A stretch of DNA of 64,000 bases from Hydractinia symbiolongicarpus. Taxonomy: Eukaryota; Cnidaria; Hydrozoa; Anthoathecata; Hydractiniidae. A model generated the notes under the pieces. It did not search any database, was not told the DNA's origin, and worked only from the letters and a program-made list of their open reading frames with translations. Made by a program: the position numbers and the translations under genes. Location of the stretch: positions 33,021,501-33,085,500 of the forward strand of contig NC_079881.1 in the NCBI RefSeq assembly GCF_029227915.1, read 5' to 3'. Below are positions 1 through 64,000 of the stretch, in pieces; the first letter of the stretch is position 1; every line of letters starts with the position of its first letter.

Positions 1-2756
1 TCGGAAGCGAGCAAACAAGATTTTTTGCGCTTTTCTTGCATTCGACGCAGTCTTCGTGAGCTCAGCAGATTTCTATTTTTAGGCATGGTCCCAGTGGGAA
101 CCTCCAAATATTGCAACGCCGGCGATGTTTCACGCCGTAATGCGGGATATTGGGAAAAGTTTTCAATTAGCAATCACCACGCCTCGGTTAAACCTCATTG
201 GCTATGGTAATGCCACTGCGCAAAGCTAACCCAACAAGAACGGCAACCATCGCGTGCTTCTTTAACGTTGTCGATTGCTTGTGGTTACGGCATTTTGGTC
301 CCCACCTCGCCTTTCCCTTGTGCCACTTAAACAGTTTTCATATTCATAGCCGAACTAAGACAAGTGTCCGTTGTCGTCGTGAGAGTAAGGGCCAGTGCCG
401 CAACGAGCGCTTTGTCTCCACCACTGATTCGCCATTTACACCTAGAATGCCCACCGTCTGCGGAAGTGACCAGTTGCGTTGAAAAGAGGCGATGCATAAT
501 GTGTCCTGCTTTACACGAAAGGGTTCTTCTCCATTCGGAAGCGAGCAAACAAGAATTTTTGCGCTTTTCTTGCATTCGACGCAGTCTTCGTGAGCTCAGC
601 AGATTTCTATTTTTAGGCATGGTCCCAGTGGGAACCTCCAAATATTGCAACGCCGGCGATGTTTCACGCCGTCATGCGGGATATTGGGAAAAGTTTTCAA
701 TTAGCAATCACCACGCCTCGGTTAAACCTCATTGGCTATGGTAATGCCACTGCGCAAAGCTAACCCAACAAGAACGGCAACCATCGCGTGCTTCTTTAAC
801 GTTATCGATTGCTTGTTGTTACGGCATTTTGGTCCCCACCTCGCCTTTCCCTTGTGCCACTTAAACAGTTTTCATATTCATAGCCGAACTAAGACAAGTG
901 TCCGTTGTTGTCGTGAGAGTAAGGGCCAGTGCCGCAACGAGCGCTTTGTCTCCACCACTGATTCGCCATTTACACCTAGAATGCCCACCGTCTGCGGAAG
1001 TGACCAGTTGCGTTGAAAAGAGGCGATGCATAATGTGTCCTGCTTTACACGAAAGGGTTCTTCTCCATTCGGAAGCGAGCAAACAAGAATTTTTGCGCTT
1101 TTCTTGCATTCGACGCAGTCTTCGTGAGCTCAGCAGATTTCTATTTTTAGGCATGGTCCCAGTGGGAACCTCCAAATATTGCAACGCCGGCGATGTTTCA
1201 CGCCGTCATGCGGGATATTGGGAAAAGTTTTCAATTAGCAATCACCACGCCTCGGTGAAACCTCATTGGCTATGGTAATGCCACTGCGCAAAGCTAACCC
1301 AACAAGAACGGCAACCATCGCGTGCTTCTTTAACGTTGTCGATTGCTTGTGGTTACGGCATTTTGGTCCCCACCTCGCCTTTCCCTTGTGCCACTTAAAC
1401 AGTTTTCATATTCATAGCCGAACTAAGACAAGTGTCCGTTGTCGTCGTGAGAGTAAGGGCCAGTGCCGCAACGAGCGCTTTGTCTCCACCACTGATTCGC
1501 CATTTACACCTAGAATGCCCACCGTCTGCGAAAGTGACCAGTTGCGTTGAAAAGAGGCAATGCATAATGTGTCCTGCTTTACACGAAAGGGTTCTTCTCC
1601 ATTCGGAAGCGAGCAAACAAGAATTTTTGCGCTTTTCTTGCACTCGACGCAGTCTTCGTGAGCTCAGCAGATTTCTATTTTTAGGCATGGTCCCAGTGGG
1701 AACCTCCAAATATTGCAACGCCGGAGATGTTTCACGCCGTCATGCGGGATATTGGGAAAAGTTTTCAATTAGCAATCACCACGCCTCGGTTAAACCTCAT
1801 TGGCTATGGTAATGCCACTGCGCAAAGCTAACCCAACAAGAACGGCAACCATCGCGTGCTTCTTTAACGTTGTCGATTGCTTGTGGTTACGGCATTTTGG
1901 TCCCCACCTCGCCTTTCCCATGTGCCACTTAAACAGTTTTCATATTCATAGCCGAACTAAGACAAGTGTCCGTTGTCGTCGTGAGAGTAAGGGCCAGTGC
2001 CGCAACGAGCGCTTTGTCTCCACCACTGATTCGCCATTTACACCTAGAATGCCCACCGTCTGTGGAAGTGACCAGTTGCGTTGAAAAGAGGCGATGCATA
2101 ATGTGTCCTGCTTTACACGAAAGGGTTCTTCTCCATTCGGAAGCGAGCAAACAAGACTTTTTGCGCTTTTCTTGCATTGGACGCAGTCTTCGTGAGCTCA
2201 GCAGATTTCTATTTTTAGGCATGGTCCCAGTGGGAACCTCCAAATATTGCAACGCCGGCGATGTTTCACGCCGTCATGCGGGATATTGGGAAAAATTTTC
2301 AATTAGCAATCACCACGCCTCGGTTAAACCTCATTGGCTATGGTAATGCCACTGCGCAAAGCTAACCCAACAAGAACGGCAACCATCGCGTGCTTCTTTA
2401 ACGTTGTCGATTGCTTGTGGTTACGGCATTTTGGTCCCCACCTCGCCTTTCCCTTGTGCCACTTAAACAGTTTTCATATTCATAGCCGAACTAAGACAAG
2501 TGTCCGTTGTTGTCGTGAGAGTAAGGGCCAGTGCCGCAACGAGCGCTTTGACTCCACCACTGATTCGCCATTTACACCTAGAATGCCCACCGTCTGCGGA
2601 AGTGACCAGTTGCGTTGAAAAGAGGCGATGCATAATGTGTCCCGCTTTACACGAAAGGGTTCTTCTCCATTCGGAAGCGAGCAAACAAGAATTTTTGCGC
2701 TTTTCTTGCATTCGACGCAGTCTTCGTGAGCTCAGCAGATTTCTATTTTTAGGCAT

Positions 2757-2897
2757 GGTCCCAGTGGGGACCTCCAAATATTGCAACGCCGGCGATGTTT
2801 CACGCCGTCATGCGGGATATTGGGAAAAGTTTTCAATTAGCAATCATCACGCCTCGGTTAAACCACATTGGCTATTGTAATGCCACTGCGCAAAGCG
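2757..2897 (-). pseudogene. Degenerate U4 snRNA copy 6
   Basis: Relative to the consensus this copy has A1C, C22A, A33T, G51A and T128C. C22A and G51A each break a base pair of the 5' stem. A33T removes a base of the tandem sheared G-A pairs that define the kink-turn, so SNU13 binding should be lost. U6-pairing stem I and the Sm site remain. The number of hits at positions fixed in most other copies suggests that it is no longer a functional gene. Confidence 0.75.
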
Positions 2898-3290
2898 AAC
2901 CCAACAAGAACGGCAACCATCACGTGCTTCTTTAACGTTATCGATTGCTTGTGGTTACGGCATTTTGGTCCCCACCTCGCCTTTTCGTTGTGCCACTTAA
3001 ACAGTTTTCATATTCATTGCCGAACTAAGACTAGTGTCCGTTGTCGTCGTGAGAGTAAGGGCCAGTGCCGCAACGAGCGCTTTGTCTCCACCACTGATTC
3101 GCCATTTACACCTAGAATGCCCACCGTCTGCGGAAGTGACCAGCTGCTTTGAAAAGAGGCGATGCATAATGTGTCCTGCTTTACACGAAAGGGTTTTTCT
3201 CCATTCGGAAGCGAGCAAACAAGAATTTTTGCGCTTTTCTTGCATTCGACGCAGTCCTTGTGAGCTCAGCAGATTTCTATTTCTAGGCAT

Positions 3291-3431
3291 GGTCCCAGTG
3301 GGAACCTCCAAATATTGCAATGCCGGCGATGTTTCACGCCGTCATGCGGGATATTGGGAAAAGTTTTCAATTAGCAATCACCACGCCTCGGTTAAACCTC
3401 ATTGGCTATGATAATGCCACTATGCAGAGCT
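3291..3431 (-). pseudogene. Degenerate U4 snRNA copy 7
   Basis: Changes seen are T5C, G9A, C10T, C21T and G111A. Three of them fall in nt 1-16, the stretch that pairs with U6 in stem II and that is invariant from this array to human. C21T leaves a U-G wobble. The unit also carries the 8-bp spacer duplication about 100 bp upstream of its start site. A non-functional copy is the simplest reading. Confidence 0.7.
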
Positions 3432-3533
3432 AACCCAACAAGAACGGCAACCATCGCGTGCTTCTTTAACGTTATCGATTGCTTGTGGTTACGGCATTTT
3501 GGTCCCCACCTCGCCTTTCCCTTGTGCCACTTA

Positions 3534-3549
3534 AACAGTTTAACAGTTT
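3534..3549. repeat. 8-bp tandem duplication in a spacer
   Basis: AACAGTTT occurs twice in a row (3534-3541 and 3542-3549), where other units have one copy. It shifts the phase of all later units by 8 bp and looks like replication slippage. Confidence 0.95.
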
Positions 3550-6500
3550 TCATATTCATAGCCGAACTAAGACAAGTGTCCGTTGTCGTCGTGAGAGTAA
3601 GGGCCAGTGCCGCAACGAGCGCTTTGTCTCCACCACTGATTCGCCATTTACACCTAGAATGCCCACCGTCTGCGGAAGTGACCAGTTGCGTTGAAAAGAG
3701 GCGATGCATAATGTGTCCTGCTTTACACGAAAGGGTTCTTCTCCATTCGGAAGCGAGCAAACAAGAATTTTTGCGCTTTTCTTGCATTCGACGCAGTCTT
3801 CGTGAGCTCAGCAGATTTCTATTTTTAGGCATGGTCCCAGTGGGAACCTCCAAATATTGCAACGCCGGCGATGTTTCACGCCGTCATGCGGGATATTGGG
3901 AAAAGTTTTCAATTAGCAATCACCGCGCCTCGGTTAAACCTCATTGGCTATGGTAATGCCACTGCGCAAAGCTAACCCAACAAGAACGGCAACCATCGCG
4001 TGCTTCTTTAACGTTATCGATTGCTTGTTGTTACGGCATTTTGGTCCCCACCTCGCCTTTCCCTTGTGCCACTTAAACAGTTTTCATATTCATAGCCGAA
4101 CTAAGACAAGTGTCCGTTGTCGTCGTGAGAGTAAGGGCCAGTGCCGCAACGAGCGCTTTGTCTCCACCACTGATTCGCCATTTACACCTAGAATGCCCAC
4201 CGTCTGCGGAAGTGACCAGTTGCGTTTAAAAGAGGCGATGCATAATGTGTCCTGCTTTACACGAAAGGGTTCTTCTCCATTCGGAAGCGAGCAAACAAGA
4301 ATTTTTGCGCTTTTCTTGCATTCGACGCAGTCTTCGTGAGCTCAGCAGATTTCTATTTTTAGGCAAGGTCCCAGTGGGAACCTCCAAATATTGCAACGCC
4401 GGCGATGTTTCACGCCGTCATGCGGGATATTGGGAAAAGTTTTCAATTAGCAATCACCACGCCTCGGTTAAACCTCATTGGCTATGGTAATGCCACTGCG
4501 CAAAGCTAACCCAACAAGAACGGCAACCATCGCGTGCTTCTTTAACGTTGTCGATTGCTTGTGGTTACGGCATTTTGGTCCCCACCTCGCCTTTCCCTTG
4601 TGCCACTTAAACAGTTTTCATATTCATAGCCGAACTAAGACAAGTGTCCGTTGTCGTCGTGAGAGTAAGGGCCAGTGCCGCAACGAGCGCTTTGTCTCCA
4701 CCACTGATTCGCCATTTACACCTAGAATGCCCACCGTCTGCGGAAGTGACCAGTTGCGTTGAAAAGAGGCGATGCATAATGTGTCCTGCTTTACACGAAA
4801 GGGTTCTTCTCCATTCGGAAGCGAGCAAACAAGAATTTTTGCGCTTTTCTTGCATTCGACGCAGTCTTCGTGAGCTCAGCAGATTTCTATTTTTAGGCAT
4901 GGTCCCAGTGGGAACCTCCAAATATTGCAACGCCGGCGATGTTTCACGCCGTCATGCGGGATATTGGGAAAAGTTTTCAATTAGCAATCACCACGCCTCG
5001 GTTAAACCTCATTGGCTATGGTAATGCCACTGCGCAAAGCTAACCCACCAAGAACGGCAACCATCGCGTGCTTCTTTAACGTTGTCGATTGCTTGTGGTT
5101 ACGGCATTTTAGTCCCCACCTCGCCTTTCCCTTGCGCCACTTAAACAGTTTTCATATTCATAGCCGAACTAAGACAAGTGTCCGTTGTCGTCGTGAGAGT
5201 AAGGGCCAGTGCCGCAACGAGCGCTTTGTCTCCACCACTGATTCGCCATTTACACCTAGAATGCCCACCGTCTGCGGAAGTGACCAGTTGCGTTGAAAAG
5301 AGGCGATGCATAATGTGTCCTGCTTTACACGAAAGGGTTCTTCTCCATTCGGAAGCGAGCAAACAAGAATTTTTGCGCTTTTCTTGCATTCGACGCAGTC
5401 TTCGTGAGCTCAGCAGATTTCTATTTTTAGGCATGGTCCCAGTGGGAACCTCCAAATATTGCAACGCCGGCGATGTTTCACGCCGTCATGCGGGATATTG
5501 GGAAAAGTTTTCAATTAGCAATCACCACGCCTCGGTTAAACCTCATTGGCTATGGTAATGCCACTGCGCAAAGCTAACCCAACAAGAACGGCAACCATCG
5601 CGTGCTTCTTTAACGTTGTCGATTGCTTGTGGTTACGGCATTTTGGTCCCCACCTCGCCTTTCCCTTGTGCCACTTAAACAGTTTTCATATGCATAGCCG
5701 AACTAAGACAAGTGTCCGTTGTCGTCGTGAGAGTAAGGGCCAGTGCCGCAACGAGCGCTTTGTCTCCACCACTGATTCGCCATTTACACCTAGAATGCCC
5801 ACCGTCTGCGTAAGTGACCAGTTGCGTTGAAAAGAGGCGATGCATAATGTGTCCTGCTTTACACGAAAGGGTTCTTCTCCATTCGGAAGCGAGCAAACAA
5901 GAATTTTTGCGCTTTTCTTGCATTCGACGCAGTCTTCGTGAGCTCAGCAGATTTCTATTTTTAGGCATGGTCCCAGTGGGAACCTCCAAATATTGCAACG
6001 CCGGCGATGTTTCACGCCGTCATGCGGGATATTGGGAAAAGTTTTCAATTAGCAATCACCACGCCTCGGTTAAACCTCATTGGCTATGGTAATGCCACTG
6101 CGCAAAGCTAACCCACCAAGAACGGCAACCATCGCGTGCTTCTTTAACGTTGTCGATTGCTTGTGGTTACGGCATTTTGGTCCCCACCTCGCCTTTCCCT
6201 TGTGCCACTTAAACAGTTTTCATATTCATAGCCGAACTAAGACAAGTGTCCGTTGTCGTCGTGAGAGTAAGGGCCAGTGCCGCAACGAGCGCTTTGTCTC
6301 CACCACTGATTCGCCATTTACACCTAGAATGCCCACCGTCTGCGGAAGTGACCAGTTGCGTTGAAAAGAGGCGATGCATAATATGTCCTGCTTTACACGA
6401 AAGGGTTCTATTCCATTCGGAAGCGAGCAAACAAGAATTTTTGCGCTTTTCTTGCATTCGACGCAGTCTTCGTGAGCTCAGCAGATTTCTATTTTTAGGC

Positions 6501-7036
6501 ATGGTCCCAGTGGGAACCTCCAAATATTGCAACGCCGGCGATGTTTCACGCCGTCATGCGGGATATTGGGAAAAGTTTTCAATTAGCAATCACCACGCCT
6601 CGGTTAAGCCTCATTGGCTATGGTAATGCCACTGCGCAAAGCTAACCCAACAAGAACGGCAACCATCGCGTGCTTCTTTAACGTTGTCGATTGCTTGTGG
6701 TTACGGCATTTTGGTCCCCACCTCGCCTTTCCCTTGTGCCACTTAAACAGTTTTCATATTCATAGCCGAACTAAGACAAGTGTCCGTTGTCGTCGTGAGA
6801 GTAAGGGCCAGTTCCGCAACGAGCGCTTTGTCTCCACCACTGATTCGCCATTTACACCTAGAATGCCCACCATCTGCGGAAGTGACCAGTTGCGTTGAAA
6901 AGAGGCGATGCATAATATGTCCTGCTTTACACGAAAGGATTCTATTCCATTCGGAAGCGAGCAAACAAGAATTTTTGCGCTTTTCTTGCATTCGACGCAG
7001 TCTTCGTGAGCTCAGCAGATTTCTATTTTTAGGCAT

Positions 7037-7177
7037 GGTCCCAGTGGGAACCTCCAAATATTGCAACGCCGGCGATGTTTCACGCCGTCATGCGGGATAT
7101 TGGGAAAAGTTATCAATTAGCAATCACCGCGCCTCTGTTAAACCTCATTGGCTATGGTAATGCCACTGCGCAAAGCT
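7037..7177 (-). pseudogene. Probable degenerate U4 snRNA copy 14
   Basis: C42A breaks G34-C42, T49C breaks A23-T49, and A66T lies 3' of stem I. Two pairs of the kink-turn stem-loop are lost in one copy. T49C is shared with the copy at 3833-3973. Its upstream spacer also shares two changes (at about 7298 and 7313) with the spacer of the degenerate copy at 2757-2897, so these left-hand units share ancestry. Confidence 0.55.
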
Positions 7178-10100
7178 AACCCAACAAGAACGGCAACCAT
7201 CGCGTGCTTCTTTAACGTTATCGATTGCTTGTGGTTACGGCATTTTGGTCCCCACCTCGCCTTTCCCTTGTGCCACTTAAACAGTTTTCATATTCATTGC
7301 CGAACTAAGACTAGTGTCCGTTGTCGTCGTGAGAGTAAGGGCCAGTGCCGCAACGAGCGCTTTGTCTCCACCACTGATTCGCCATTTACACCTAGAATGC
7401 CCACCGTCTGCGGAAGTGACCAGTTGCGTTGAAAAGAGGCGATGCATAATGTGTCCTGCTTTACACGAAAGGGTTCTTCTCCATTCGGAAGCGAGCAAAC
7501 AAGAATTTTTGCGCTTTTCTTGCATTCGACGCAGTCTTCGTGAGCTCAGCAGATTTCTATTTTTAGGCATGGTCCCAGTGGGAACCTCCAAATATTGCAA
7601 CGTCGGCGATGTTTCACGCCGTCATGCGGGATATTGGGAAAAGTTTTCAATTAGCAATCACCACGCCTCGGTTAAACCTCATTGGCTATGGTAATGCCAC
7701 TGCGCAAAGCTAACCCAACAAGAACGGCAACCATCGCGTGCTTCTTTAACGTTATCGATTGCTTGTTGTTACGGCATTTTGGTCCCCACCTTGCCTTTCC
7801 CTTGTGCCACTTAAACAGTTTTCATATTCATAGCCGAACTAAGACAAGTGTCCGTTGTCGTCGTGAGAGTAAGGGCCAGTGCCGCAACGAGCGCTTTGTC
7901 TCCACCACTGATTCGCCATTTACACCTAGAATGCCCACCGTCTGCGGAAGTGACCAGTTGCGTTGAAAAGAGGCGATGCATAATGTGTCCTGCTTTACAC
8001 GAAAGGGTTCTTCTCCATTCGGAAGCGAGCAAACAAGAATTTTTGCGCTTTTCTTGCATTCGACGCAGTCTTCGTGAGCTCAGCAGATTTCTATTTTTAG
8101 GCATGGTCCCAGTGGGAACCTCCAAATATTGCAACGCCGGCGATGTTTCACGCCGTCATGCGGGATATTGGTGAAAGTTTTCAATTAGCAATCACCACGC
8201 CTCGGTTAAACCTCATTGGCTATGGTAATGCCACTGCGCAAAGCTAACCCAACAAGAACGGCAACCATCGCGTGCTTCTTTAACGTTGTCGATTGCTTGT
8301 GGTTACGGCATTTTGGTCCCCACCTCGCCTTTCCCTTGTGCCACTTAAACAGTTTTCATATTCATAGCCGAACTAAGACAAGTGTCCGTTGTCGTCGTGA
8401 GAGTAAGGGCCAGTGCCGCAACGAGCGCTTTGTCTCCACCACTGATTCGCCATTTACACCTAGAATGCCCACCGTCTGCGGAAGTGACCAGTTGCGTTGA
8501 AAAGAGGCGATGCATAATGTGTCCTGCTTTACACGAAAGGGTTCTTCTCCATTCGGAAGCGAGCAAACAAGAGTTTTTGCGCTTTTCTTGCATTCGACGC
8601 AGTCTTCGTGAGCTCAGCAGATTTCTATTTTTAGGCATGGTCCCAGTGGGAACCTCCAAATATTGCAACGCCGGCGATGTTTCACGCCGTCATGCGGGAT
8701 ATTGGGAAAAGTTTTCAATTAGCAATCACCACGCCTCGGTTAAACCTCATTGGCTATGGTAATGCCACTGCGCAAAGCTAACCCAACAAGAACGGCAACC
8801 ATCGCGTGCTTCTTTAACGTTGTCGATTGCTTGTGGTTACGGCATTTTGGTCCCCACCTCGCCTTTCCCTTGTGCCACTTAAACAGTTTTCATATTCATA
8901 GCCGAACTAAGACAAGTGTCCGTTGTCGTCGTGAGAGTAAGGGCCAGTGCCGCAACGAGCGCTTTGTCTCCACCACTGATTCGCCATTTACACCTAGAAT
9001 GCCCACCGTCTGCGGAAGTGACCAGTTGCGTTGAAAAGAGGCGATGCATAATGTGTCCTGCTTTGCACGAAAGGGTTCTTCTCCATTCGGAAGCGAGCAA
9101 ACAAGAATTTTTGCGCTTTTCTTGCATTCGACGCAGTCTTCGTGAGCTCAGCAGATTTCTATTTTTAGGCATGGTCCCAGTGGGAACCTCCAAATATTGC
9201 AACGCCGGCGATGTTTCACGCCGTCATGCGGGATATTGGGAAAAGTTTTCAATTAGCAATCACCACGCCTCGGTTTAACCTCATTGGCTATGGTAATGCC
9301 ACTGCGCAAAGCTAACCCAACAAGAACGGCAACCATGGCGTGCTTCTTTAACGTTGTCGATTGCTTGTGGTTACGGCATTTTGGTCCCCACCTCGCCTTT
9401 CCCTTGTGCCACTTAAACAGTTTTCATATGCATAGCCGAACTAAGACAAGTGTCCGTTGTCGTCGTGAGAGTAAGGGCCAGTGCCGCAACGAGCGCTTTG
9501 TCTCCACCACTGATTCGCCATTTACACCTAGAATGCCCACCGTCTGCGGAAGTGACCAGTTGCGTTGAAAAGAGGCGATGCATAATGTGTCCTGCTTTAC
9601 ACGAAAGGGTTCTTCTCCATTCGGAAGCGAGCAAACAAGAATTTTTGCGCTTTTCTTGCATTCGACGCAGTCTTCGTGAGCTCAGCAGATTTCTATTTTT
9701 AGGCATGGTCCCAGTGGGAACCTCCAAATATTGCAACGCCGGCGATGTTTCACGCCGTCATGCGGGATATTGGGAAAAGTTTTCAATTAGCAATCACCAC
9801 GCCTCGGTTTAACCTCATTGGCTATGGTAATGCCACTGCGCAAAGCTAACCCACCAAGAACGGCAACCATCGCGTGCTTCTTTAACGTTGTCGATTGCTT
9901 GTGGTTACGGCATTTTGGTCCCCACCTCGCCTTTCCCTTGTGCCACTTAAACAGTTTTCATATGCATAGCCGAACTAAGACAAGTGTCCGTTGTCGTCGT
10001 GAGAGTAAGGGCCAGTGCCGCAACGAGCGCTTTGTCTCCACCACTGATTCGCCATTTACACCTAGAATGCCCACCGTCTGCGGAAGTGACCAGTTGCGTT

Positions 10101-13100: not shown

Positions 13101-13963
13101 GCTTGTGGTTACGGCATTTTGGTCCCCACCTCGCCTTTCCCTTGTGCCACTTAAACAGTTTTCAAATGCATAGCCGAACTAAGACAAGTGTCCGTTGTCG
13201 TCGTGAGAGTAAGGGCCAGTGCCGCAACAAGCGCTTTGTCTCCACCACTGATTCGCCATTTACACCTAGAATGCCCACCGTCTGCGGAAGTGACCAGTTG
13301 CGTTGAAAAGAGGCGATGCATAATGTGTCCTGCTTTACACGAAAGGGTTCTTCTCCATTCGGAAGCGAGCAAACAAGAATTTTTGCGCTTTTCTTGCATT
13401 CGACGCAGTCTTCGTGAGCTCAGCAGATTTCTATTTTTAGGCATGGTCCCAGTGGGAACCTCCAAATATTGCAACGCCGGCGATGTTTCACGCCGTCATG
13501 CGGGATATTGGGAAAAGTTTTCAATTAGCAATCACCACGCCTCGGTTAAACCTCATTGGCTATGGTAATGCCACTGCGCAAAGCTAACCCAACAAGAACG
13601 GCAACCATCGCGTGCTTCTTTAACGTTGTCGATTGCTTGTGGTTACGGCATTTTGGTCCCCACCTCGCCTTTCCCTTGTGCCACTTAAACAGTTTTCATA
13701 TGCATAGCCGAACTAAGACAAGTGTCCGTTGTCGTCGTGAGAGTAAGGGCCAGTGCCGCAACGAGCGCTTTGTCTCCACCACTGATTCGCCATTTACACC
13801 TAGAATGCCCACCGTCTGCGGAAGTGACCAGTTGCGTTGAAAAGAGGCGATGCATAATGTGTCCTGCTTTACACGAAAGGGTTCTTCTCCATTCGGAAGC
13901 GAGCAAACAAGAATTTTTGCGCTTTTCTTGCATTCGACGCAGTCTTCGTGAGCTCAGCAGATT

Positions 13964-13972
13964 TCTATTTTT
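13964..13972 (-). terminator. 3' box of the U4 gene (representative unit)
   Basis: The minus strand reads AAAAATAGA, 7 to 15 nt past the inferred U4 3' end. This matches the AAARNNAGA part of the metazoan snRNA 3' box, which directs Integrator cleavage of polymerase II snRNA transcripts. It recurs at the same offset in the other units. Confidence 0.6.
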
Positions 13973-13978
13973 AGGCAT

Positions 13979-14119: not shown

Positions 14120-14164
14120 AACCCAACAAGAACGGCAACCATCGCGTGCTTCTTTAACGTTGTC

Positions 14165-52500: not shown

Positions 52501-55500
52501 CAATTAGCAATCACCACGCCTCGGTTAAACCTCATTGGCTATGGTAATGCCACTGCGCAAAGCTAACCCAACAAGAACGGCAACCATCGCGTGCTTCTTT
52601 AACGTTGTCGATTGCTTGTGGTTACGGCATTTTGGTCCCCACCTCGCCTTTCCCTTGTGCCACTTAAACAGTTTTCATATGCATAGCCGAACTAAGACAA
52701 GTGTCCGTTGTCGTCGTGAGAGTAAGGGCCAGTGCCGCAACGAGCGCTTTGTCTCCACCACTGATTCGCCATTTACACCTAGAATGCCCACCGTCTGCGG
52801 AAGTGACCAGTTGCGTTGAAAAGAGGCGATGCATAATGTGTCCTGCTTTACACGAAAGGGTTCTTCTCCATTCGGAAGCGAGCAAACAAGAATTTTTGCG
52901 CTTTTCTTGCATTCGACGCAGTCTTCGTGAGCTCAGCAGATTTCTATTTTTAGGCATGGTCCCAGTGGGAACCTCCAAATATTGCAACGCCGGCGATGTT
53001 TCACGCCGTCATGCGGGATATTGGGAAAAGTTTTCAATTAGCAATCACCACGCCTCGGTTAAACCTCATTGGCTATGGTAATGCCACTGCGCAAAGCTAA
53101 CCCAACAAGAACGGCAACCATCGCGTGCTTCTTTAACGTTGTCGATTGCTTGTGGTTACGGCATTTTGGTCCCCACCTCGCCTTTCCCTTGTGCCACTTA
53201 AACAGTTTTCATATGCATAGCCGAACTAAGACAAGTGTCCGTTGTCGTCGTGAGAGTAAGGGCCAGTGCCGCAACGAGCGCTTTGTCTCCACCACTGATT
53301 CGCCATTTACACCTAGAATGCCCACCGTCTGCGGAAGTGACCAGTTGCGTTGAAAAGAGGCGATGCATAATGTGTCCTGCTTTACACGAAAGGGTTCTTC
53401 TCCATTCGGAAGCGAGCAAACAAGAATTTTTGCGCTTTTCTTGCATTCGACGCAGTCTTCGTGAGCTCAGCAGATTTCTATTTTTAGGCATGGTCCCAGT
53501 GGGAACCTCCAAATATTGCAACGCCGGCGATGTTTCACGCCGTCATGCGGGATATTGGGAAAAGTTTTCAATTAGCAATCACCACGCCTCGGTTAAACCT
53601 CATTGGCTATGGTAATGCCACTGCGCAAAGCTAACCCAACAAGAACGGCAACCATCGCGTGCTTCTTTAACGTTGTCGATTGCTTGTGGTTACGGCATTT
53701 TGGTCCCCACCTCGCCTTTCCCTTGTGCCACTTAAACAGTTTTCATATGCATAGCCGAACTAAGACAAGTGTCCGTTGTCGTCGTGAGAGTAAGGGCCAG
53801 TGCCGCAACGAGCGCTTTGTCTCCACCACTGATTCGCCATTTACACCTAGAATGCCCACCGTCTGCGGAAGTGACCAGTTGCGTTGAAAAGAGGCGATGC
53901 ATAATGTGTCCTGCTTTACACGAAAGGGTTCTTCTCCATTCGGAAGCGAGCAAACAAGAATTTTTGCGCTTTTCTTGCATTCGACGCAGTCTTCGTGAGC
54001 TCAGCAGATTTCTATTTTTAGGCATGGTCCCAGTGGGAACCTCCAAATATTGCAACGCCGGCGATGTTTCACGCCGTCATGCGGGATATTGGGAAAAGTT
54101 TTCAATTAGCAATCACCACGCCTCGGTTAAACCTCATTGGCTATGGTAATGCCACTGCGCAAAGCTAACCCAACAAGAACGGCAACCATCGCGTGCTTCT
54201 TTAACGTTGTCGATTGCTTGTGGTTACGGCATTTTGGTCCCCACCTCGCCTTTCCCTTGTGCCACTTAAACAGTTTTCATATGCATAGCCGAACTAAGAC
54301 AAGTGTCCGTTGTCGTCGTGAGAGTAAGGGCCAGTGCCGCAACGAGCGCTTTGTCTCCACCACTGATTCGCCATTTACACCTAGAATGCCCACCGTCTGC
54401 GGAAGTGACCAGTTGCGTTGAAAAGAGGCGATGCATAATGTGTCCTGCTTTACACGAAAGGGTTCTTCTCCATTCGGAAGCGAGCAAACAAGAATTTTTG
54501 CGCTTTTCTTGCATTCGACGCAGTCTTCGTGAGCTCAGCAGATTTCTATTTTTAGGCATGGTCCCAGTGGGAACCTCCAAATATTGCAACGCCGGCGATG
54601 TTTCACGCCGTCATGCGGGATATTGGGAAAAGTTTTCAATTAGCAATCACCACGCCTCGGTTAAACCTCATTGGCTATGGTAATGCCACTGCGCAAAGCT
54701 AACCCAACAAGAACGGCAACCATCGCGTGCTTCTTTAACGTTGTCGATTGCTTGTGGTTACGGCATTTTGGTCCCCACCTCGCCTTTCCCTTGTGCCACT
54801 TAAACAGTTTTCATATGCATAGCCGAACTAAGACAAGTGTCCGTTGTCATCGTGAGAGTAAGGGCCAGTGCCGCAACGAGCGCTTTGTCTCCACCACTGA
54901 TTCGCCATTTACACCTAGAATGCCCACCGTCTGCGGAAGTGACCAGTTGCGTTGAAAAGAGGCGATGCATAATGTGTCCTGCTTTACACGAAAGGGTTCT
55001 TCTCCATTCGGAAGCGAGCAAACAAGAATTTTTGCGCTTTTCTTGCATTCGACGCAGTCTTCGTGAGCTCAGCAGATTTCTATTTTTAGGCATGGTCCCA
55101 GTGGGAACCTCCAAATATTGCAACGCCGGCGATGTTTCACGCCGTCATGCGGGATATTGGGAAAAGTTTTCAATTAGCAATCACCACGCCTCGGTTAAAC
55201 CTCATTGGCTATGGTAATGCCACTGCGCAAAGCTAACCCAACAAGAACGGCAACCATCGCGTGCTTCTTTAACGTTGTCGATTGCTTGTGGTTACGGCAT
55301 TTTGGTCCCCACCTCGCCTTTCCCTTGTGCCACTTAAACAGTTTTCATATGCATAGCCGAACTAAGACAAGTGTCCGTTGTCGTCGTGAGAGTAAGGGCC
55401 AGTGCCGCAACGAGCGCTTTGTCTCCACCACTGATTCGCCATTTACACCTAGAATGCCCACCGTCTGCGGAAGTGACCAGTTGCGTTGAAAAGAGGCGAT

Positions 55501-57904
55501 GCATAATGTGTCCTGCTTTACACGAAAGGGTTCTTCTCCATTCGGAAGCGAGCAAACAAGAATTTTTGCGCTTTTCTTGCATTCGACGCAGTCTTCGTGA
55601 GCTCAGCAGATTTCTATTTTTAGGCATGGTCCCAGTGGGAACCTCCAAATATTGCAACGCCGGCGATGTTTCACGCCGTCATGCGGGATATTGGGAAAAG
55701 TTTTCAATTAGCAATCACCACGCCTCGGTTAAACCTCATTGGCTATGGTAATGCCACTGCGCAAAGCTAACCCAACAAGAACGGCAACCATCGCGTGCTT
55801 CTTTAACGTTGTCGATTGCTTGTGGTTACGGCATTTTGGTCCCCACCTCGCCTTTCCCTTGTGCCACTTAAACAGTTTTCATATGCATAGCCGAACTAAG
55901 ACAAGTGTCCGTTGTCGTCGTGAGAGTAAGGGCCAGTGCCGCAACGAGCGCTTTGTCTCCACCACTGATTCGCCATTTACACCTAGAATGCCCACCGTCT
56001 GCGGAAGTGACCAGTTGCGTTGAAAAGAGGCGATGCATAATGTGTCCTGCTTTACACGAAAGGGTTCTTCTCCATTCGGAAGCGAGCAAACAAGAATTTT
56101 TGCGCTTTTCTTGCATTCGACGCAGTCTTCGTGAGCTCAGCAGATTTCTATTTTTAGGCATGGTCCCAGTGGGAACCTCCAAATATTGCAACGCCGGCGA
56201 TGTTTCACGCCGTCATGCGGGATATTGGGAAAAGTTTTCAATTAGCAATCACCACGCCTCGGTTAAACCTCATTGGCTATGGTAATGCCACTGCGCAAAG
56301 CTAACCCAACAAGAACGGCAACCATCGCGTGCTTCTTTAACGTTGTCGATTGCTTGTGGTTACGGCATTTTGGTCCCCACCTCGCCTTTCCCTTGTGCCA
56401 CTTAAACAGTTTTCATATGCATAGCCGAACTAAGACAAGTGTCCGGTGTCGTCGTGAGAGTAAGGGCCAGTGCTGCAACGAGCGCTTTGTCTCCACCACT
56501 GATTCGCCATTTACACCTAGAATGCCCACCGTCTGCGGAAGTGACCAGTTGCGTTGAAAAGAGGCGATGCATAATGTGTCCTGCTTTACACGAAAGGGTT
56601 CTTCTCCATTCGGAAGCGAGCAAACAAGAATTTTTGCGCTTTTCTTGCATTCGACGCAGTCTTCGTGAGCTCAGCAGATTTCTATTTTTAGGCATGGTCC
56701 CAGTGGGAACCTCCAAATATTGCAACGCCGGCGATGTTTCACGCCGTCATGCGGGATATTGGGAAAAGTTTTCAATTAGCAATCACCACGCCTCGGTTAA
56801 ACCTCATTGGCTATGGTAATGCCACTGCGCAAAGCTAACCCAACAAGAACGGCAACCATCGCGTGCTTCTTTAACGTTGTCGATTGCTTGTGGTTACGGC
56901 ATTTTGGTCCCTACCTCGCCTTTCCCTTGTGCCACTTAAACAGTTTTCATATGCATAGCCGAACTAAGACAAGTGTCCGGTGTCGTCGTGAGAGTAAGGG
57001 CCAGTGCCGCAACGAGCGCTTTGTCTCCACCACTGATTCGCCATTTACACCTAGAATGCCCACCGTCTGCGGAAGTGACCAGTTGCGTTGAAAAGAGGCG
57101 ATGCATAATGTGTCCTGCTTTACACGAAAGGGTTCTTCTCCATTCGGAAGCGAGCAAACAAGAATTTTTGCGCTTTTCTTGCATTCGACGCAGTCTTCGT
57201 AAGCTCAGCAGATTTCTATTTTTAGGCATGGTCCCAGTGGGAACCTCCAAATATTGCAACGCCGGCGATGTTTCACGCCGTCATGCGGGATATTGGGAAA
57301 AGTTTTCAATTAGCAATCACCACGCCTCGGTTAAACCTCATTGGCTATGGTAATGCCACTGCGCAAAGCTAACCCAACAAGAACGGCAACCATCGCGTGC
57401 TTCTTTAACGTTGTCGATTGCTTGTGGTTACGGCATTTTGGTCCCCACCTCGCCTTTCCCTTGTGCCACTTAAACAGTTTTCATATGCATAGCCGAACTA
57501 AGACAAGTGTCCGGTGTCGTCGTGAGAGTAAGGGCCAGTGCCGCAACGAGCGCTTTGTCTCCACCACTGATTCGCCATTTACACCTAGAATGCCCACCGT
57601 CTGCGGAAGTGACCAGTTGCGTTGAAAAGAGGCGATGCATAATGTGTCCTGCTTTACACGAAAGGGTTCTTCTCCATTCGGAAGCGAGCAAACAAGAATT
57701 TTTGCGCTTTTCTTGCATTCGACGCAGTCTTCGTGAGCTCAGCAGATTTCTATTTTTAGGCATGGTCCCAGTGGGAACCTCCAAATATTGCAACGCCGGC
57801 GATGTTTCACGCCGTCATGCGGGATATTGGGAAAAGTTTTCAATTAGCAATCACCACGCCTCGGTTAAACCTCATTGGCTATGGTAATGCCACTGCGCAA
57901 AGCT
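46551..57904 (-). ncRNA. U4 snRNA gene cluster, copies 88-109
   Basis: Twenty-two complete U4 genes, 5' ends at 46690 + 534k for k = 0 to 21. The first copy (46551-46690) is 140 nt because one A of the central AAA loop (nt 98-100) is missing; this loss also shifts the phase of everything downstream by one base. Other changes: G43A in the kink-turn (5' end 47758), C83T (50428), and the double-hit copy ending at 52030 listed separately. The last copy (57764-57904) lies next to the retrotransposon insertion and is intact. Confidence 0.94.
51890..52030 (-). pseudogene. U4 snRNA copy with Sm-site and stem I hits
   Basis: T120A (plus-strand 51911) turns the Sm site from AATATTTGG into AATAATTGG, and T56A (51975) lies in the TTGCTAAT segment that pairs with U6 in stem I. 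Both sites are needed for snRNP assembly or U6 pairing, so this copy is probably inactive. It is surrounded by consensus copies. Confidence 0.6.
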
Positions 57905-57914
57905 AACCCAACAA
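57905..57914 (+). repeat. Left direct repeat, putative target-site duplication
   Basis: AACCCAACAA here is repeated at 60971-60980 after the element tail. In normal units this decamer occupies U4 -1 to -10. If it is a true target-site duplication, the insert comprises the 77-bp U4 fragment plus the element. Confidence 0.65.
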
Positions 57915-57991
57915 TATTGGGAAAAGTTTTCAATTAGCAATCACCACGCCTCGGTTAAACCTCATTGGCTATGGTAATGCCACTGCGCAAA
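57915..57991 (-). pseudogene. Truncated U4 fragment abutting the retrotransposon
   Basis: 77 bp identical to U4 nt 4-80 in the usual minus orientation, placed between the 10-bp direct repeat at 57905-57914 and the retrotransposon 5' end. On the plus strand the junction runs from AACAA straight into TATTGGG, so U4 nt 81-141 and the whole spacer are absent. The other end stops 3 bases short of U4 nt 1. It is either a partial tandem duplication into which the element inserted, or filler acquired when the 5' end of the element was joined. Confidence 0.9.
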
Positions 57992-58002
57992 ACGAGGAAA
58001 AG

Positions 58003-58422
58003 ATGGCGGATAAGCAGAGACGTTGTATTAAAGTTGTTAAAGATTTTGAGTATGTTAACTTAAATGGAAAGCTGCTTTCCAGCAATGAGATATTGGAAAT
58101 GGATCTTAGATCTTGCTGTGGAGATTGTGAAGATAATGAAACTATTTCTAATGGTTTACAGAAGTGTATAGAACAACGTATAGATATACTTCGTACTGAG
58201 ATTATGTCAGAAGTAAAACAAATTGCAAACGACAAGAATAAATTTGGTGATAATCATAGAATTTTAGAAAACCGTATTATAATGTTACAGGAAGATAACA
58301 CTTTTTTGAAAAAACAGTTGACTGATTTGACCGGTTTTTTAGAAGTTTTAGTGGAATGTATAAACGAACGGCGAAGTCAATCATGCATGACGACGGTAAA
58401 ACCGTTTAAAAAACCTCATTAA
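58003..58422 (+). CDS. Retrotransposon ORF1-like coiled-coil protein
   Basis: 139 residues starting at an ATG in a good context (A at -3, G at +4). Residues 1-50 hold a basic start and a cysteine cluster (C38, C39, C42). Residues 52-123 are rich in Glu, Lys, Leu and Ile with heptad-like spacing and probably form a coiled coil. LINE ORF1 proteins are usually RNA-binding and self-associating, and a coiled coil fits, but I see no CCHC knuckle or RRM. The C-terminus from about residue 127 lies at the deletion junction, and its last codons overlap the ORF2 frame at 58400-58422 in another phase. The natural ORF1 may therefore have been longer. Confidence 0.65.
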   Translation: MADKQRRCIKVVKDFEYVNLNGKLLSSNEILEMDLRSCCGDCEDNETISNGLQKCIEQRIDILRTEIMSEVKQIANDKNKFGDNHRILENRIIMLQEDNTFLKKQLTDLTGFLEVLVECINERRSQSCMTTVKPFKKPH

Positions 58423-60793
58423 AAAACCAACGTGTCACAAATCATTACAAAATCCATCATGTGTCGATCACATATGGGTGTCTGATTCTAAACGATTCCA
58501 CCACACCAGCATTTTGGAAAACGACCTTTCTGATTATCACGATATAGTTGTAACTTTCTTAAATGTGGAAATACCAAAGAAAGATCCTAAAATTATAAAT
58601 TATCGTTGTTACAGACTTTTTAATGACGAACATTTTAAACATGACCTTGAGTCACTTATTGCATCAAACAATGACTTAAATTACAACGACTTTGACGAAC
58701 AATTCAGTCAGTTGGTCAGCAAACACGCCCCTATAAAATACAAAGTTGTTAGAAATAATAACTCTCCATTTATAACAAAAGCAGTACGAAAGGAGATAAT
58801 GACTCGATCGAGATTTAAAAATATCTACAATAAGCACCCTTCTATTAAAAACTGGGAAAACTTTAAAAGGCAAAGAAACAAATGTGTCACTGTTTGTAGA
58901 GACGCGAAAAGAATTTATTACACATCACTAAATATGAACAACATTTTTGATAACAAAAAGTTCTGGAAAACTGTAAAGCCGATATTTTCCAACAAATGTG
59001 TAAAAGATACAGTCCAAGTAATAGTTGAAAATGATCAAATAATTTGTGAAAAAGAACATATAGCAAATATAATAAATGATCATTTTGTTAATGTCACGAA
59101 TTCTTTGAATATTGATGGAATTCCGCACGAAAACTATAACGATATTAAAAACGATATTGAAAACGTCATCAAGAATTACGAACAGCATCCAAGTATAATA
59201 TGGATAAAGAAACATGTTACCACTACCAACAAAATGAGGTTCAAATCAATTGAAATTGACATCATGAAAAAGTATATTGGTAACCTAAAAGAAAACAAAT
59301 CTGGTCCCAAAGGAGCAATTCCACCATGTTTCCTCAAATATTACGTCGATGTATACGGAGAACATCTCAACAAGCTGTTTGAGAAATCTATTGTCGATGA
59401 AGTTTTCCCTGGAGCAATGAAATTGGCTGATATTTGTCCACTATTTAAAAACGGAGATCGTTCATCAAAATTGAATTATCGTCCTGTTAGTAAACTGAGC
59501 AGTGCGTCAAAAATTTTTGAACGTATTATGTTTGATCAGATTTATGAATTTATTGATAATAAATTATCACCTCTTTTGTCAGGTTTTCGAAAGGGTTTTA
59601 GCAGCCAGCATGTTTTGCTTCACATGATAGAATCGTGGCGAAAAGATCTCGATAAAGGAAATGCTGTAGGGGCGTTATTGATGGATTTGAGTAAAGCATT
59701 TGATTGTGTGGATCATAATCTGTTAATAGCGAAACTACATGCATATGGTTTCTCAAAAAGTGCTTTAGGTCTTTTAAGGAGTTTTCTCACCAATCGGTTC
59801 CAAAGAGTCGGAATTGATGGCTATTTCAGCTTGTGGAAAGAAATTATTAGTGGTGTTCCACAAGGTTCGATTCTGGGTCCACTTTTATTCAATATTTATA
59901 TAAATGATTTAATGTTTATTTTTAATGATAGAGCTGATGTTAAAATTTGTAATTACGCAGATGACAATACACTTTATACATATGGAAAACAATTTGAGGA
60001 GATAAAGTTATGTTTAGAAAGTGCTTTTTCAACTGTTAGCACATGGTTTTCCAATAATGGGCTTCAGTTAAATTCTGAGAAGTGCAAACTGCTCATTCTG
60101 GGAAAATCAAAAAACAAAAACTTTGTTACTTTAAATTTGAAAAATAATATATTACAAGAGTCTCCATACGTAAATTTGTTGGGTATAATTCTGGACAATC
60201 AGCTTTCTTTCAGGCAACATGTTCTTCCATTATGTAAGAAGGCTAATGCCAAGATCAATGCCCTAAAACGTATATCACCATATATGTCTAATTATAAGCG
60301 AAATGTTATTGCAAATTCATTTATTTCTAGCATATTTAATTACTGCCCTCTTATATGGGGATTTTCAAGTAGAGATCTACTACATAAAGTTAATAGCATT
60401 CATAGTAGAGCAAATAGACTTTTATGCGACAGAATTGAAAATGAATGCAGAATCAGTATTCATGAAAAGTTCTGCCGAAAATTGTTAAAGGAGGTTTTTA
60501 AAACAAAAATGAAACAGAATCCATCCTACATGAATGATGTTTTTGTATTCAAAAACACAGCATATAGTTTCCGTGCATCAAGTTCTCTTGAAAGGTGCAG
60601 AACTCGCACCACAAAGCATGGTCTATTAAGCGTATCTTATATTGCTTCTAAATTATGGGAGAAGCTTCCAAACTCTGTCCGAAATGCCCCTTCGTTGTCT
60701 TTATTCCATCGCGGGCTAAACACCATTCCGTTTATTCAGTGCAGTTGTCGTCTCTGTGCCACATATATTTGTAACGTAGGATATACGAATTAA
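58400..60793 (+). CDS. Retrotransposon ORF2: endonuclease remnant plus reverse transcriptase
   Basis: The frame is open from 58400 (stop TAA just before) to the stop at 60793. It has no ATG until 58799, so the natural start was lost with the upstream part. Numbering from the GTG at 58478: 58403-58545 encode the C-terminal end of an APE-type endonuclease (NPSCVD at 58451, LSDYH at residues 17-21, where His is the usual catalytic one). The reverse transcriptase covers about residues 310-560, with motif A LMDLSKAFD (Asp403), SGVPQGSILGPLLF (458-471) and YADD (493-496, Asp495 and Asp496). The C-terminal region ends with C755-x-C757-x2-C760. Full-length relatives carry about 200 more endonuclease residues. 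No stop or frameshift breaks the polymerase, so it may be young or selected. Translation as it stands is doubtful. Confidence 0.9.
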   Translation, partial: NRLKNLIKKPTCHKSLQNPSCVDHIWVSDSKRFHHTSILENDLSDYHDIVVTFLNVEIPKKDPKIINYRCYRLFNDEHFKHDLESLIASNNDLNYNDFDEQFSQLVSKHAPIKYKVVRNNNSPFITKAVRKEIMTRSRFKNIYNKHPSIKNWENFKRQRNKCVTVCRDAKRIYYTSLNMNNIFDNKKFWKTVKPIFSNKCVKDTVQVIVENDQIICEKEHIANIINDHFVNVTNSLNIDGIPHENYNDIKNDIENVIKNYEQHPSIIWIKKHVTTTNKMRFKSIEIDIMKKYIGNLKENKSGPKGAIPPCFLKYYVDVYGEHLNKLFEKSIVDEVFPGAMKLADICPLFKNGDRSSKLNYRPVSKLSSASKIFERIMFDQIYEFIDNKLSPLLSGFRKGFSSQHVLLHMIESWRKDLDKGNAVGALLMDLSKAFDCVDHNLLIAKLHAYGFSKSALGLLRSFLTNRFQRVGIDGYFSLWKEIISGVPQGSILGPLLFNIYINDLMFIFNDRADVKICNYADDNTLYTYGKQFEEIKLCLESAFSTVSTWFSNNGLQLNSEKCKLLILGKSKNKNFVTLNLKNNILQESPYVNLLGIILDNQLSFRQHVLPLCKKANAKINALKRISPYMSNYKRNVIANSFISSIFNYCPLIWGFSSRDLLHKVNSIHSRANRLLCDRIENECRISIHEKFCRKLLKEVFKTKMKQNPSYMNDVFVFKNTAYSFRASSSLERCRTRTTKHGLLSVSYIASKLWEKLPNSVRNAPSLSLFHRGLNTIPFIQCSCRLCATYICNVGYTN

Positions 60794-60950
60794 CTTCTTA
60801 TTATTATAATATAAATCTCCTATTTTTTTAGAAACTTTATTTTAGGACAGTCGATTTTAATTAGCCCAAGGCTAACAAATTTTTTTTTTTTTTTTTAATT
60901 AATGTATCTAGCATGTTTTATTGTATATTGTATATCGACTTTAAAGAAAG
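60794..60950 (+). other. Retrotransposon 3' untranslated region
   Basis: AT-rich, with no further ORF. It contains a perfect 6-bp hairpin, TTAGCC-CAA-GGCTAA (60861-60875), then a run of 17 T (60880-60896). A 3' hairpin of this kind can be the reverse transcriptase recognition site in LINEs; that role is inferred here. Confidence 0.6.
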
Positions 60951-60970
60951 AATAAATAAATAAATAAAAA
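60951..60970 (+). repeat. Retrotransposon 3' tail, AATA/TAAA type
   Basis: Four AATA repeats followed by A residues join the array directly. Short TAAA-like repeats at the 3' end are typical of CR1/Jockey-group elements and are used to prime on the target. AATAAA polyadenylation signals are included. Confidence 0.85.
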
Positions 60971-60980
60971 AACCCAACAA
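60971..60980 (+). repeat. Right direct repeat, putative target-site duplication
   Basis: AACCCAACAA follows the A-rich tail directly and is the partner of 57905-57914. The bottom strand here ends GGGTT before U4 nt 1, so a nick at TT/AG would give a 3' TT able to pair with the A-rich tail and prime reverse transcription. Confidence 0.65.
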
Positions 60981-61363
60981 GAACGGCAACCATCGCGTGC
61001 TTCTTTAACGTTGTCGATTGCTTGTGGTTACGGCATTTTGGTCCCCACCTCGCCTTTCCCTTGTGCCACTTAAACAGTTTTCATATGCATAGCCGAACTA
61101 AGACAAGTGTCCGGTGTCGTCGTGAGAGTAAGGGCCAGTGCCGCAACGAGCGCTTTGTCTCCACCACTGATTCGCCATTTACACCTAGAATGCCCACCGT
61201 CTGCGGAAGTGACCAGTTGCGTTGAAAAGAGGCGATGCATAATGTGTCCTGCTTTACACGAAAGGGTTCTTCTCCATTCGGAAGCGAGCAAACAAGAATT
61301 TTTGCGCTTTTCTTGCATTCGACGCAGTCTTCGTGAGCTCAGCAGATTTCTATTTTTAGGCAT

Positions 61364-63640
61364 GGTCCCAGTGGGAACCTCCAAATATTGCAACGCCGGC
61401 GATGTTTCACGCCGTCATGCGGGATATTGGGAAAAGTTTTCAATTAGCAATCACCACGCCTCGGTTAAACCTCATTAACTATGGTAATGCCACTGCGCAA
61501 AGCTAACCCAACAAGAACGGCAACCATCGCGTGCTTCTTTAACGTTGTCGATTGCTTGTGGTTACGGCATTTTGGTCCCCACCTCGCCTTTCCCTTGTGC
61601 CACTTAAACAGTTTTCATATGCATAGCCGAACTAAGACAAGTGTCCGGTGTCGTCGTGAGAGTAAGGGCCAGTGCCGCAACGAGCGCTTTGTCTCCACCA
61701 CTGATTCGCCATTTACACCTAGAATGCCCACCGTCTGCGGAAGTGACCAGTTGCGTTGAAAAGAGGCGATGCATAATGTGTCCTGCTTTACACGAAAGGG
61801 TTCTTCTCCATTCGGAAGCGAGCAAACAAGAATTTTTGCGCTTTTCTTGCATTCGACGCAGTCTTCGTGAGCTCAGCAGATTTCTATTTTTAGGCATGGT
61901 CCCAGTGGGAACCTCCAAATATTGCAACGCCGGCGATGTTTCACGCCGTCATGCGGGATATTGGGAAAAGTTTTCAATTAGCAATCACCACGCCTCGGTT
62001 AAACCTCATTGGCTATGGTAATGCCACTGCGCAAAGCTAACCCAACAAGAACGGCAACCATCGCGTGCTTCTTTAACGTTGTCGATTGCTTGTGGTTACG
62101 GCATTTTGGTCCCCACCTCGCCTTTCCCTTGTGCCACTTAAACAGTTTTCATATGCATAGCCGAACTAAGACAAGTGTCCGTTGTCGTCGTGAGAGTAAG
62201 GGCCAGTGCCGCAACGAGCGCTTTGTCTCCACCACTGATTCGCCATTTACACCTAGAATGCCCACCGTCTGCGGAAGTGACCAGTTGCGTTGAAAAGAGG
62301 CGATGCATAATGTGTCCTGCTTTACACGAAAGGGTTCTTCTCCATTCGGAAGCGAGCAAACAAGAATTTTTGCGCTTTTCTTGCATTCGACGCAGTCTTC
62401 GTGAGCTCAGCAGATTTCTATTTTTAGGCATGGTCCCAGTGGGAACCTCCAAATATTGCAACGCCGGCGATGTTTCACGCCGTCATGCGGGATATTGGGA
62501 AAAGTTTTCAATTAGCAATCACCACGCCTCGGTTAAACCTCATTGGCAATGGTAATGCCACTGCGCAAAGCTAACCCAACAAGAACGGCAACCATCGCGT
62601 GCTTCTTTAACGTTGTCGATTGCTTGTGGTTACGGCATTTTGGTCCCCACCTCGCCTTTCCCTTGTGCCACTTAAACAGTTTTCATATGCATAGCCGAAC
62701 TAAGACAAGTGTCCGGTGTCGTCGTGAGAGTAAGGGCCAGTGCCGCAACGAGCGCTTTGTCTCCACCACTGATTCGCCATTTACACCTAGAATGCCCACC
62801 GTCTGCGGAAGTGACCAGTTGCGTTGAAAAGAGGCGATGCATAATGTGTCCTGCTTTACACGAAAGGGTTCTTCTCCATTCGGAAGCGAGCAAACAAGAA
62901 TTTTTGCGCTTTTCTTGCATTCGACGCAGTCTTCGTGAGCTCAGCAGATTTCTATTTTTAGGCATGGTCCCAGTGGGAACCTCCAAATATTGCAACGCCG
63001 GCGATGTTTCACGCCGTCATGCGGGATATTGGGAAAAGTTTTCAATTAGCAATCACCACGCCTCGGTTAAACCTCATTGGCTATGGTAATGCCACTGCGC
63101 AAAGCTAACCCAACAAGAACGGCAACCATCGCGTGCTTCTTTAACGTTGTCGATTGCTTGTGGTTACGGCATTTTGGTCCCCACCTCGCCTTTCCCTTGT
63201 GCCACTTAAACAGTTTTCATATGCATAGCCGAACTAAGACAAGTGTCCGGTGTCGTCGTGAGAGTAAGGGCCAGTGCCGCAACGAGCGCTTTGTCTCCAC
63301 CACTGATTCGCCATTTACACCTAGAATGCCCACCGTCTGCGGAAGTGACCAGTTGCGTTGAAAAGAGGCGATGCATAATGTGTCCTGCTTTACACGAAAG
63401 GGTTCTTCTCCATTCGGAAGCGAGCAAACAAGAATTTTCGCGCTTTTCTTGCATTCGACGCAGTCTTCGTGAGCTCAGCAGATTTCTATTTTTAGGCATG
63501 GTCCCAGTGGGAACCTCCAAATATTGCAACGCCGGCGATGTTTCACGCCGTCATGCGGGACATTGGGAAAAGTTTTCAATTAGCAATCACCACGCCTCGG
63601 TTAAACCTCATTGGCTATGGTAATGCCACTGCGCAAAGCT
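61364..63640 (-). ncRNA. U4 snRNA gene cluster, copies 110-114
   Basis: Five complete U4 genes right of the retrotransposon, 5' ends at 61504 + 534k for k = 0 to 4. The first has C27T and C28T, which turn two C-G pairs of the 5' stem into U-G wobbles. The third (5' end 62572) has A25T at the bulged base. The fifth (63640) has A80G. The next copy would start beyond the window. Confidence 0.94.
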
Positions 63641-64000
63641 AACCCAACAAGAACGGCAACCATCGCGTGCTTCTTTAACGTTGTCGATTGCTTGTGGTTA
63701 CGGCATTTTGGTCCCCACCTCGCCTTTCCCTTGTGCGACTTAAACAGTTTTCATATGCATAGCCGAACTAAGACAAGTGTCCGTTGTCGTCGTGAGAGTA
63801 AGGGCCAGTGCCGCAACGAGCGCTTTGTCTCCACCACTGATTCGCCATTTACACCTAGAATGCCCACCGTCTGCGGAAGTGACCAGTTGCGTTGAAAAGA
63901 GGCGATGCATAATGTGTCCTGCTTTACACGAAAGGGTTCTTCTCCATTCGGAAGCGAGCAAACAAGAATTTTTGCGCTTTTCTTGCATTCGACGCAGTCT

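Follow-up and report, generated by a model that had tools for sequence, protein, structure and literature searches.

A large tandem array of U4 small nuclear RNA genes, most likely functional, on chromosome 7 of Hydractinia symbiolongicarpus

A stretch of 64,000 nucleotides on chromosome 7 (C7) of the cnidarian Hydractinia symbiolongicarpus clone 291-10 (assembly HSymV2.0, C7:33,021,501-33,085,500; called the window below) is occupied by a repeat with a unit of 534 bp. The question raised by this locus is whether the repeat is a satellite or an array of genes that the animal uses. An earlier note on this DNA had taken the apparent satellite to be a tandem array of U4 small nuclear RNA (snRNA) genes, with one gene on the minus strand of each unit, and had predicted about 114 full-length matches at 534-bp spacing for the Rfam U4 family, RF00015. 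The search of the window with cmscan and Rfam 15 (gathering score of RF00015, 46 bits) bore this out. All 115 matches at gathering level lay on the minus strand, and 114 of them were full-length copies, mostly 534 bp apart, scoring 104.9 to 120.5 bits (E 9.2e-23 to 6.9e-27). The 115th match was a truncated piece of 75.8 bits at 57912-57994, beside an inserted retrotransposon.

The exact 17-nt 5' end of U4 was present in 110 copies, and 103 of the 109 intervals between these ends were exactly 534 bp. The remaining intervals measured 533, 532, twice 1068, 1610 and 3600 bp. The units diverged from their consensus by a median of 2 differences in 534 positions (112 units aligned); a stricter set, aligned over all 534 positions, contained 111 units of the window, gave the same median and was used for the counts given below. 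The window contained no N. Tandem Repeats Finder (TRF) did not report the array because its longest period was 500. As the array runs past both ends of the window, 114 is the count of the window and not that of the array. The main features are the following, with one unit serving as example:

1..57907, minus strand: tandem array of 534-bp units with one U4 snRNA gene each, continuing to the left of the window (RF00015 matches, spacing and reading beyond the window)
60973..64000 (start approximate), minus strand: the array resumed past the retrotransposon, continuing to the right up to an assembly gap at C7:33,204,353 (RF00015 matches; sampled beyond C7:33,125.5 kb)
4367..4507, minus strand: coding region of the example U4 RNA, with nt 1 at 4507 and nt 141 at 4367 (RF00015 match and sequence)
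4384..4392, minus strand: AAUAUUUGG, which we take to be the Sm site, preceding the terminal stem-loop of the example unit (sequence and RF00015 alignment)

The 5' stem-loop, the Sm site and the 3' stem-loops of the array U4 were intact as judged from the RF00015 alignments, the consensus fold and the 3' helices. The earlier note had called nt 1-16 identical to U4; in the RF00015 alignment, nucleotides 2 and 13 differed from the Rfam U4 consensus. The length of about 141 nt proposed in the earlier note fits the predicted fold, in which the terminal stem-loop ends at nt 141. A second RNA gene in the spacer, such as a spliced leader, was considered and rejected, since a cmscan run at E<=1 on 1,201 bp with two copies of U4 returned U4 itself, its clan overlaps and no other family. 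By eye, an Sm-like string was noticed on the strand opposite to U4.

The extent of the array was determined by contiguous reading and by sampling in the 480.9-Mb assembly (76 contigs). The window array stretched over about 200 kb, from about C7:33,003.7 kb to a gap of 500 N at 33,204,353. A second U4 array of about 266 kb, in inverted orientation, was found on the same chromosome at C7:21,523,932 to about 21,789,900, at a distance of 11 Mb. In total 205 full units of the window array and 44 of the 21.5-Mb array were read. The exact 17-nt U4 5' end occurred 828 times in the genome, 475 times on the forward and 353 times on the reverse strand. A T at position -1, as in the array units, was present in 826 of the 828, a count that was not assigned to the arrays place by place. 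The two 5' ends with another base at -1 lay at C7:9.07 and 9.49 Mb; any dispersed U4 gene with a T at -1 or with an altered 5' end would be missed by such a scan. Division of the array spans, less inserts, by 534 gave roughly 500 units for the longer and 360 for the shorter array, in keeping with the 5'-end counts. Beyond the gap of 500 N, repeated transfer RNA (tRNA) genes (Met, Gln, Val and others) were found at C7:33,204.9-33,221 kb, which places two repeats of small-RNA genes side by side in the scaffold. The last 10 kb of C7, where the contig ends in a tandem repeat, did not contain TTAGGG.

The two dispersed U4 genes at 9.07 and 9.49 Mb offered a comparison outside the arrays. Over nt 1-142 the two had one and the same sequence, which departed from the array consensus at nt 88, 95, 103, 104 and 111 (5 of 141 nt). 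These positions all fall within the 3' stem-loop, and four of them form two double changes that keep the pairing: nt 95:104 is G-C in one type and U-A in the other, and nt 88:111 is U-G and G-C. In the flanks, the array consensus and both dispersed genes shared a 7-nt run at -57 (CCACAAG) and another 7-nt run at +151, at identical offsets. Neither run was reached in any of 100,000 mononucleotide shuffles, and in circular shifts they were reached 2 and 5 times in 20,000. In the example unit the two elements are located as follows:

4558..4564, minus strand: CCACAAG heptamer at -57 to -51, proposed proximal sequence element (PSE), an snRNA promoter element (shared runs; U2 and U5 loci)
4351..4358, minus strand: AAATAGAA, a 3'-box-like element at +150 to +157 (run shared with the dispersed U4 genes)

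Animal snRNA genes carry a proximal sequence element near -55, as in vertebrates. The heptamer was met again in genes that had played no part in its discovery. All 12 U2 loci fetched carried it at -54, and all 12 U5 loci fetched at -55; one of the latter is a dispersed U5 gene whose upstream sequence differs. As the loci of one array are near copies, this recurrence amounts to one U2 and two U5 cases and not to 24. In a further 161,200 positions, almost all of them outside the U4 arrays (one piece included about 1 kb of array edge), the heptamer occurred 5 times. CCACAAG stands near -55 in the U4 array, both dispersed U4 genes, U2, the U5 array and one dispersed U5 gene, and is read as the putative proximal sequence element of H. 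symbiolongicarpus. The +151 run, common to the array and both dispersed U4 genes, was read as a 3' box for the U4 genes only. Since the heptamer and the 3' box are common to the array and the dispersed U4 genes, and the heptamer recurs at U2 and U5, the units look like whole transcription units.

Other snRNA genes of this animal are also reported as arrayed. A published account names tandem arrays of noncoding RNA genes in Hydractinia, namely U1, U2, U5, U6, U3, ribosomal RNA and tRNA (Schnitzler et al. 2024, PMC11067881). The genome searches for U2 and U5 agreed with these arrays. At least 46 scored matches were found for U2, all on C9 and commonly 5.85 kb apart, and at least 46 for U5, 45 of them at C11:18.2-18.8 Mb and one at 20.8 Mb; both counts are lower bounds, as only the best candidates were scored, and the spacing of these matches was mostly regular. 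The scored U2 copies were spread across 5 Mb (C9:7.1-12.3 Mb) in runs of both orientations, which is far looser than the U4 array. The dispersed U5 gene (C11:20,842,746-20,842,864) differed in sequence and scored 92.4 bits, compared with 87.9 or less for the other 45 scored U5 matches. U5 has the same layout as U4, with an array and at least one dispersed gene of different sequence. For U6, 48 of 42,524 candidates were scored and gave four matches, one of them just above the cut-off (47.5 bits, cut-off 44). This weak result is no evidence of absence, because the published text calls U6 arrayed.

The variation among the units pointed to local exchange. Neighbouring units of the window shared rare variants at 0.109 per pair at lag 1, while 200 shuffles gave a mean of 0.014 and a maximum of 0.055; at lags of 10 to 20 units the sharing was down to background level. 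Such a pattern is expected from unequal exchange or gene conversion acting locally. Three marks of concerted evolution were present, namely head-to-tail order, near identity that included the spacers, and greater likeness of neighbours. Selection within the array was tested by comparing variation in U4 and spacer and was not clearly found, as detailed below.

From these results, the large U4 array is most likely functional. We consider it probable that the locus is a tandem array of complete U4 genes, homogenised among themselves, in which each unit has its own PSE-like CCACAAG and 3' box and is transcribed singly, and that the two arrays are haplotypes. Each intact 534-bp unit would be transcribed by itself, presumably by RNA polymerase II, to yield a U4 RNA of about 141 nt. 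The hundreds of array copies may supply the bulk of U4, and the published U1, U2, U5 and U6 arrays presumably play a like role for their own RNAs. The units would be kept uniform by gene conversion or unequal exchange among close neighbours instead of by selection acting on every copy.

Several observations weigh against this proposal, and most of them would suit a U4-derived satellite, that is, a silent array grown by unequal exchange while the two dispersed genes on chromosome 7 supply the U4 RNA. Both dispersed genes are intact, carry the heptamer and the 3' box, and score slightly higher than the array copies in the same comparison (121.4 versus 120.4 bits). In the window U4 was not more conserved than the spacer. 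Minor alleles per site and unit amounted to 0.00428 in U4 and 0.00394 in the spacer, and variable sites to 47 of 141 and 97 of 393, respectively (111 units, Fisher p 0.06). Among the 205 units of the window array, variable sites were slightly in excess in U4 (70/141 versus 146/393, p 0.012), also outside CpG (59/123 versus 116/341), and minor alleles were slightly fewer (0.00370 versus 0.00439). In the 44 units of the 21.5-Mb array the corresponding values were 21/141 versus 57/393 (p 0.89) and 0.00532 versus 0.00700. At least one U4 change occurred in 45 of the 111 full window units. In pairwise tests, which are weaker, the array was not singled out by its flanks: 112 and 29 of 300 shuffles equalled the upstream 16-mer matches to the two dispersed genes, and 157 and 6 of 300 the downstream 10-mer matches, of which the former is not significant. 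The pair-keeping changes come from three distinct sequences and one contrast, and 52 of 500 shuffles reached them. The host genome is also rich in repeats, which make up 61% (PMC10411563).

A dead satellite would show the same lack of clear constraint on U4. Parity of U4 and spacer does not decide between a gene array and a dead satellite, because hundreds of copies make each one nearly dispensable. The case for function rests on the flank signals and on the comparison with the snRNA family. The heptamer was kept in 107 and the 3' box in 111 of the 111 full units, although the equally uniform spacers make conservation within the array weak evidence; the consensus U4 was kept in 66 units, and all three were unchanged in 64. 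The heptamer also stands upstream of the U2 and U5 loci, the array type differs from the dispersed type of U4 at pair-keeping or loop positions only, and the other major snRNAs of Hydractinia are reported as arrayed (PMC11067881). A satellite without gene content was rejected as the likeliest reading, since both the heptamer and the 3' box of the array recur in the dispersed U4 genes, and the heptamer in U2 and U5 loci as well, and the silent U4-derived satellite is considered unlikely. An assembly artefact, in which a few U4 genes were inflated by misassembly, is the least credible explanation and is hardly to be expected. Tandem repeats are error-prone and the window array ends at a gap, but the assembly was published from HiFi reads (PMC10411563), the window is free of N, and rare unit variants are clustered locally. 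In addition, non-array flank was reached at the left end of the 21.5-Mb array, and its other end has a decayed edge that is shared with the window array.

Whether the two arrays are haplotypes or duplicates is a question separate from that of gene or satellite. The right flank of the 21.5-Mb array was matched, inverted, at the left flank of the window array, in consecutive stretches that together make up about 5 kb, with identities of 96.1, 92.4 and 99.0%. Flank probes further out showed 94-95% identity at two places and 99.9% at one about 60 kb out, and about 210 kb out a 267-bp match of 97.8% was found at the end of the fetched piece. A probe about 0.6 Mb out (L034) had its best non-self match at 95% in mirrored order on C7, but it is a repeat with 58 matches, and its counterpart was not in the piece fetched at about 0.6 Mb. 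Probe L060 had no match among the pieces compared, which excluded its expected mirrored place.

The likelier reading is that the window array and its counterpart at 21.5-21.8 Mb represent a single locus in two haplotypes, one of which was probably retained as a haplotig. A retained haplotig is favoured because the published heterozygosity is 1.33% (PMC11067881) and 6.5% of BUSCOs are duplicated (PMC10411563). Under the haplotype reading, the haploid gene number would be about 500 for one array and no fewer than 360 for the other. The alternative, a true inverted duplication within chromosome 7 with roughly 860 genes per haploid genome, appears rather unlikely. It would agree with the placement of both arrays in one published chromosome-scale scaffold, and with the result for a probe about 110 kb out (L031), for which the 5 kb fetched contained no counterpart, although that piece may not have covered the right place. 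The consensus sequences of the units read (205 versus 44) also differed between the arrays at four spacer positions; none of the differences was in U4, but 0 of 141 against 4 of 393 are too few to call U4 spared. Besides the published values, the mirrored flank identity near the array, at about 60 kb, at about 210 kb and, with the repeat probe, at about 0.6 Mb argues against a duplication, and the window array stops at the gap of 500 N as a broken haplotig would.

In the window the array is interrupted by a mobile element:

57992..60972 (ends approximate), plus strand: retrotransposon without long terminal repeats (non-LTR) inserted in the array, with the Pfam domain RVT_1 (Pfam, database match)
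57912..57994, minus strand: truncated U4 fragment bordering the retrotransposon at its 5' junction; of the two copies of a 90-bp duplication it is the second (RF00015 match)

The best database match of the retrotransposon frame was an H. symbiolongicarpus protein with 89% identity over 83% of the query. An endonuclease family was not found in the frame as it stands. The 90-bp duplication at the 5' junction is a partial copy consisting of U4 and upstream sequence, and this odd junction might have arisen by target duplication or, later, by tandem duplication. Near the left edge of the window array, the spacer contained another element of a different kind, about 6 kb long (3012-9119 of the fetched piece L014), which by eye looks like a non-LTR retrotransposon. 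Beyond it followed the last units and then a decayed edge, and the same decayed edge was present at the 21.5-Mb array. Specific targeting of U4 by retrotransposons was considered and rejected. The two elements were inserted in different parts of the unit and gave no sign of a preferred site, in a comparison limited to these two insertions.

Tandem arrays of U1 and U2 snRNA genes are known in animals. Like these and the human RNU2 genes, the array described here consists of tandem snRNA repeats, but it is built of U4, in hundreds of 534-bp units, in a cnidarian. Going by the title of a 2023 article in Zebrafish, Azambuja et al. reportedly mapped U4 small nuclear DNA (snDNA) sites on fish chromosomes. 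The human U2 genes are tandemly repeated (PMC9138887), and defective U4 copies are described in Ancistrus (PMC10532334). In the protist Perkinsus, the passage on spliced leader (SL) RNA genes describes them as clustered with U2 and U4 (PMC3101222); there U4 is linked to small-RNA repeats in mixed clusters of few units, whereas the Hydractinia array consists of U4 alone. The closest precedent is the set of Hydractinia arrays, of the same kind and in the same animal. The published text lists arrays for U1, U2, U5 and U6, which it counts as 'four of the five', and U4 is the major snRNA missing from that list (PMC11067881); the array found here in HSymV2.0 adds it. The words 'tandem' and 'snRNA' are absent from the main text of the HSymV2.0 paper (PMC10411563), and no paper on a U4 array in Hydractinia was among those listed in searches of open-access literature, supplementary files being outside the search. 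The earlier view that a long U4 array is less familiar held in part. The kind was already known from the published Hydractinia arrays, and its U4 member appears to be new.

The two types of U4 permit a further, quite doubtful reading, according to which there are two U4 systems, the huge array making one type and the solo genes a second that differs only in the 3' stem-loop. If this were true, the two types might serve different stages or cells, with the array type, for example, in eggs, embryos or stem cells. Oocyte and somatic 5S RNA offer a parallel to such usage. The five diagnostic bases split array-type from dispersed-type U4, and the genes that supply the spliceosome can therefore be read from RNA sequencing.

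A repeat mask can hide essential RNA genes, and in HSymV2.0 the class of 'small RNA' repeats is tabulated with 8.67 Mb (PMC10411563). The probable haplotype pair, differing at the consensus level, is a usable case for the study of concerted evolution. A single array of U4 can grow to several hundred homogenised copies, and U4, as the missing fifth, completes the set of arrayed major spliceosomal RNAs in Hydractinia.

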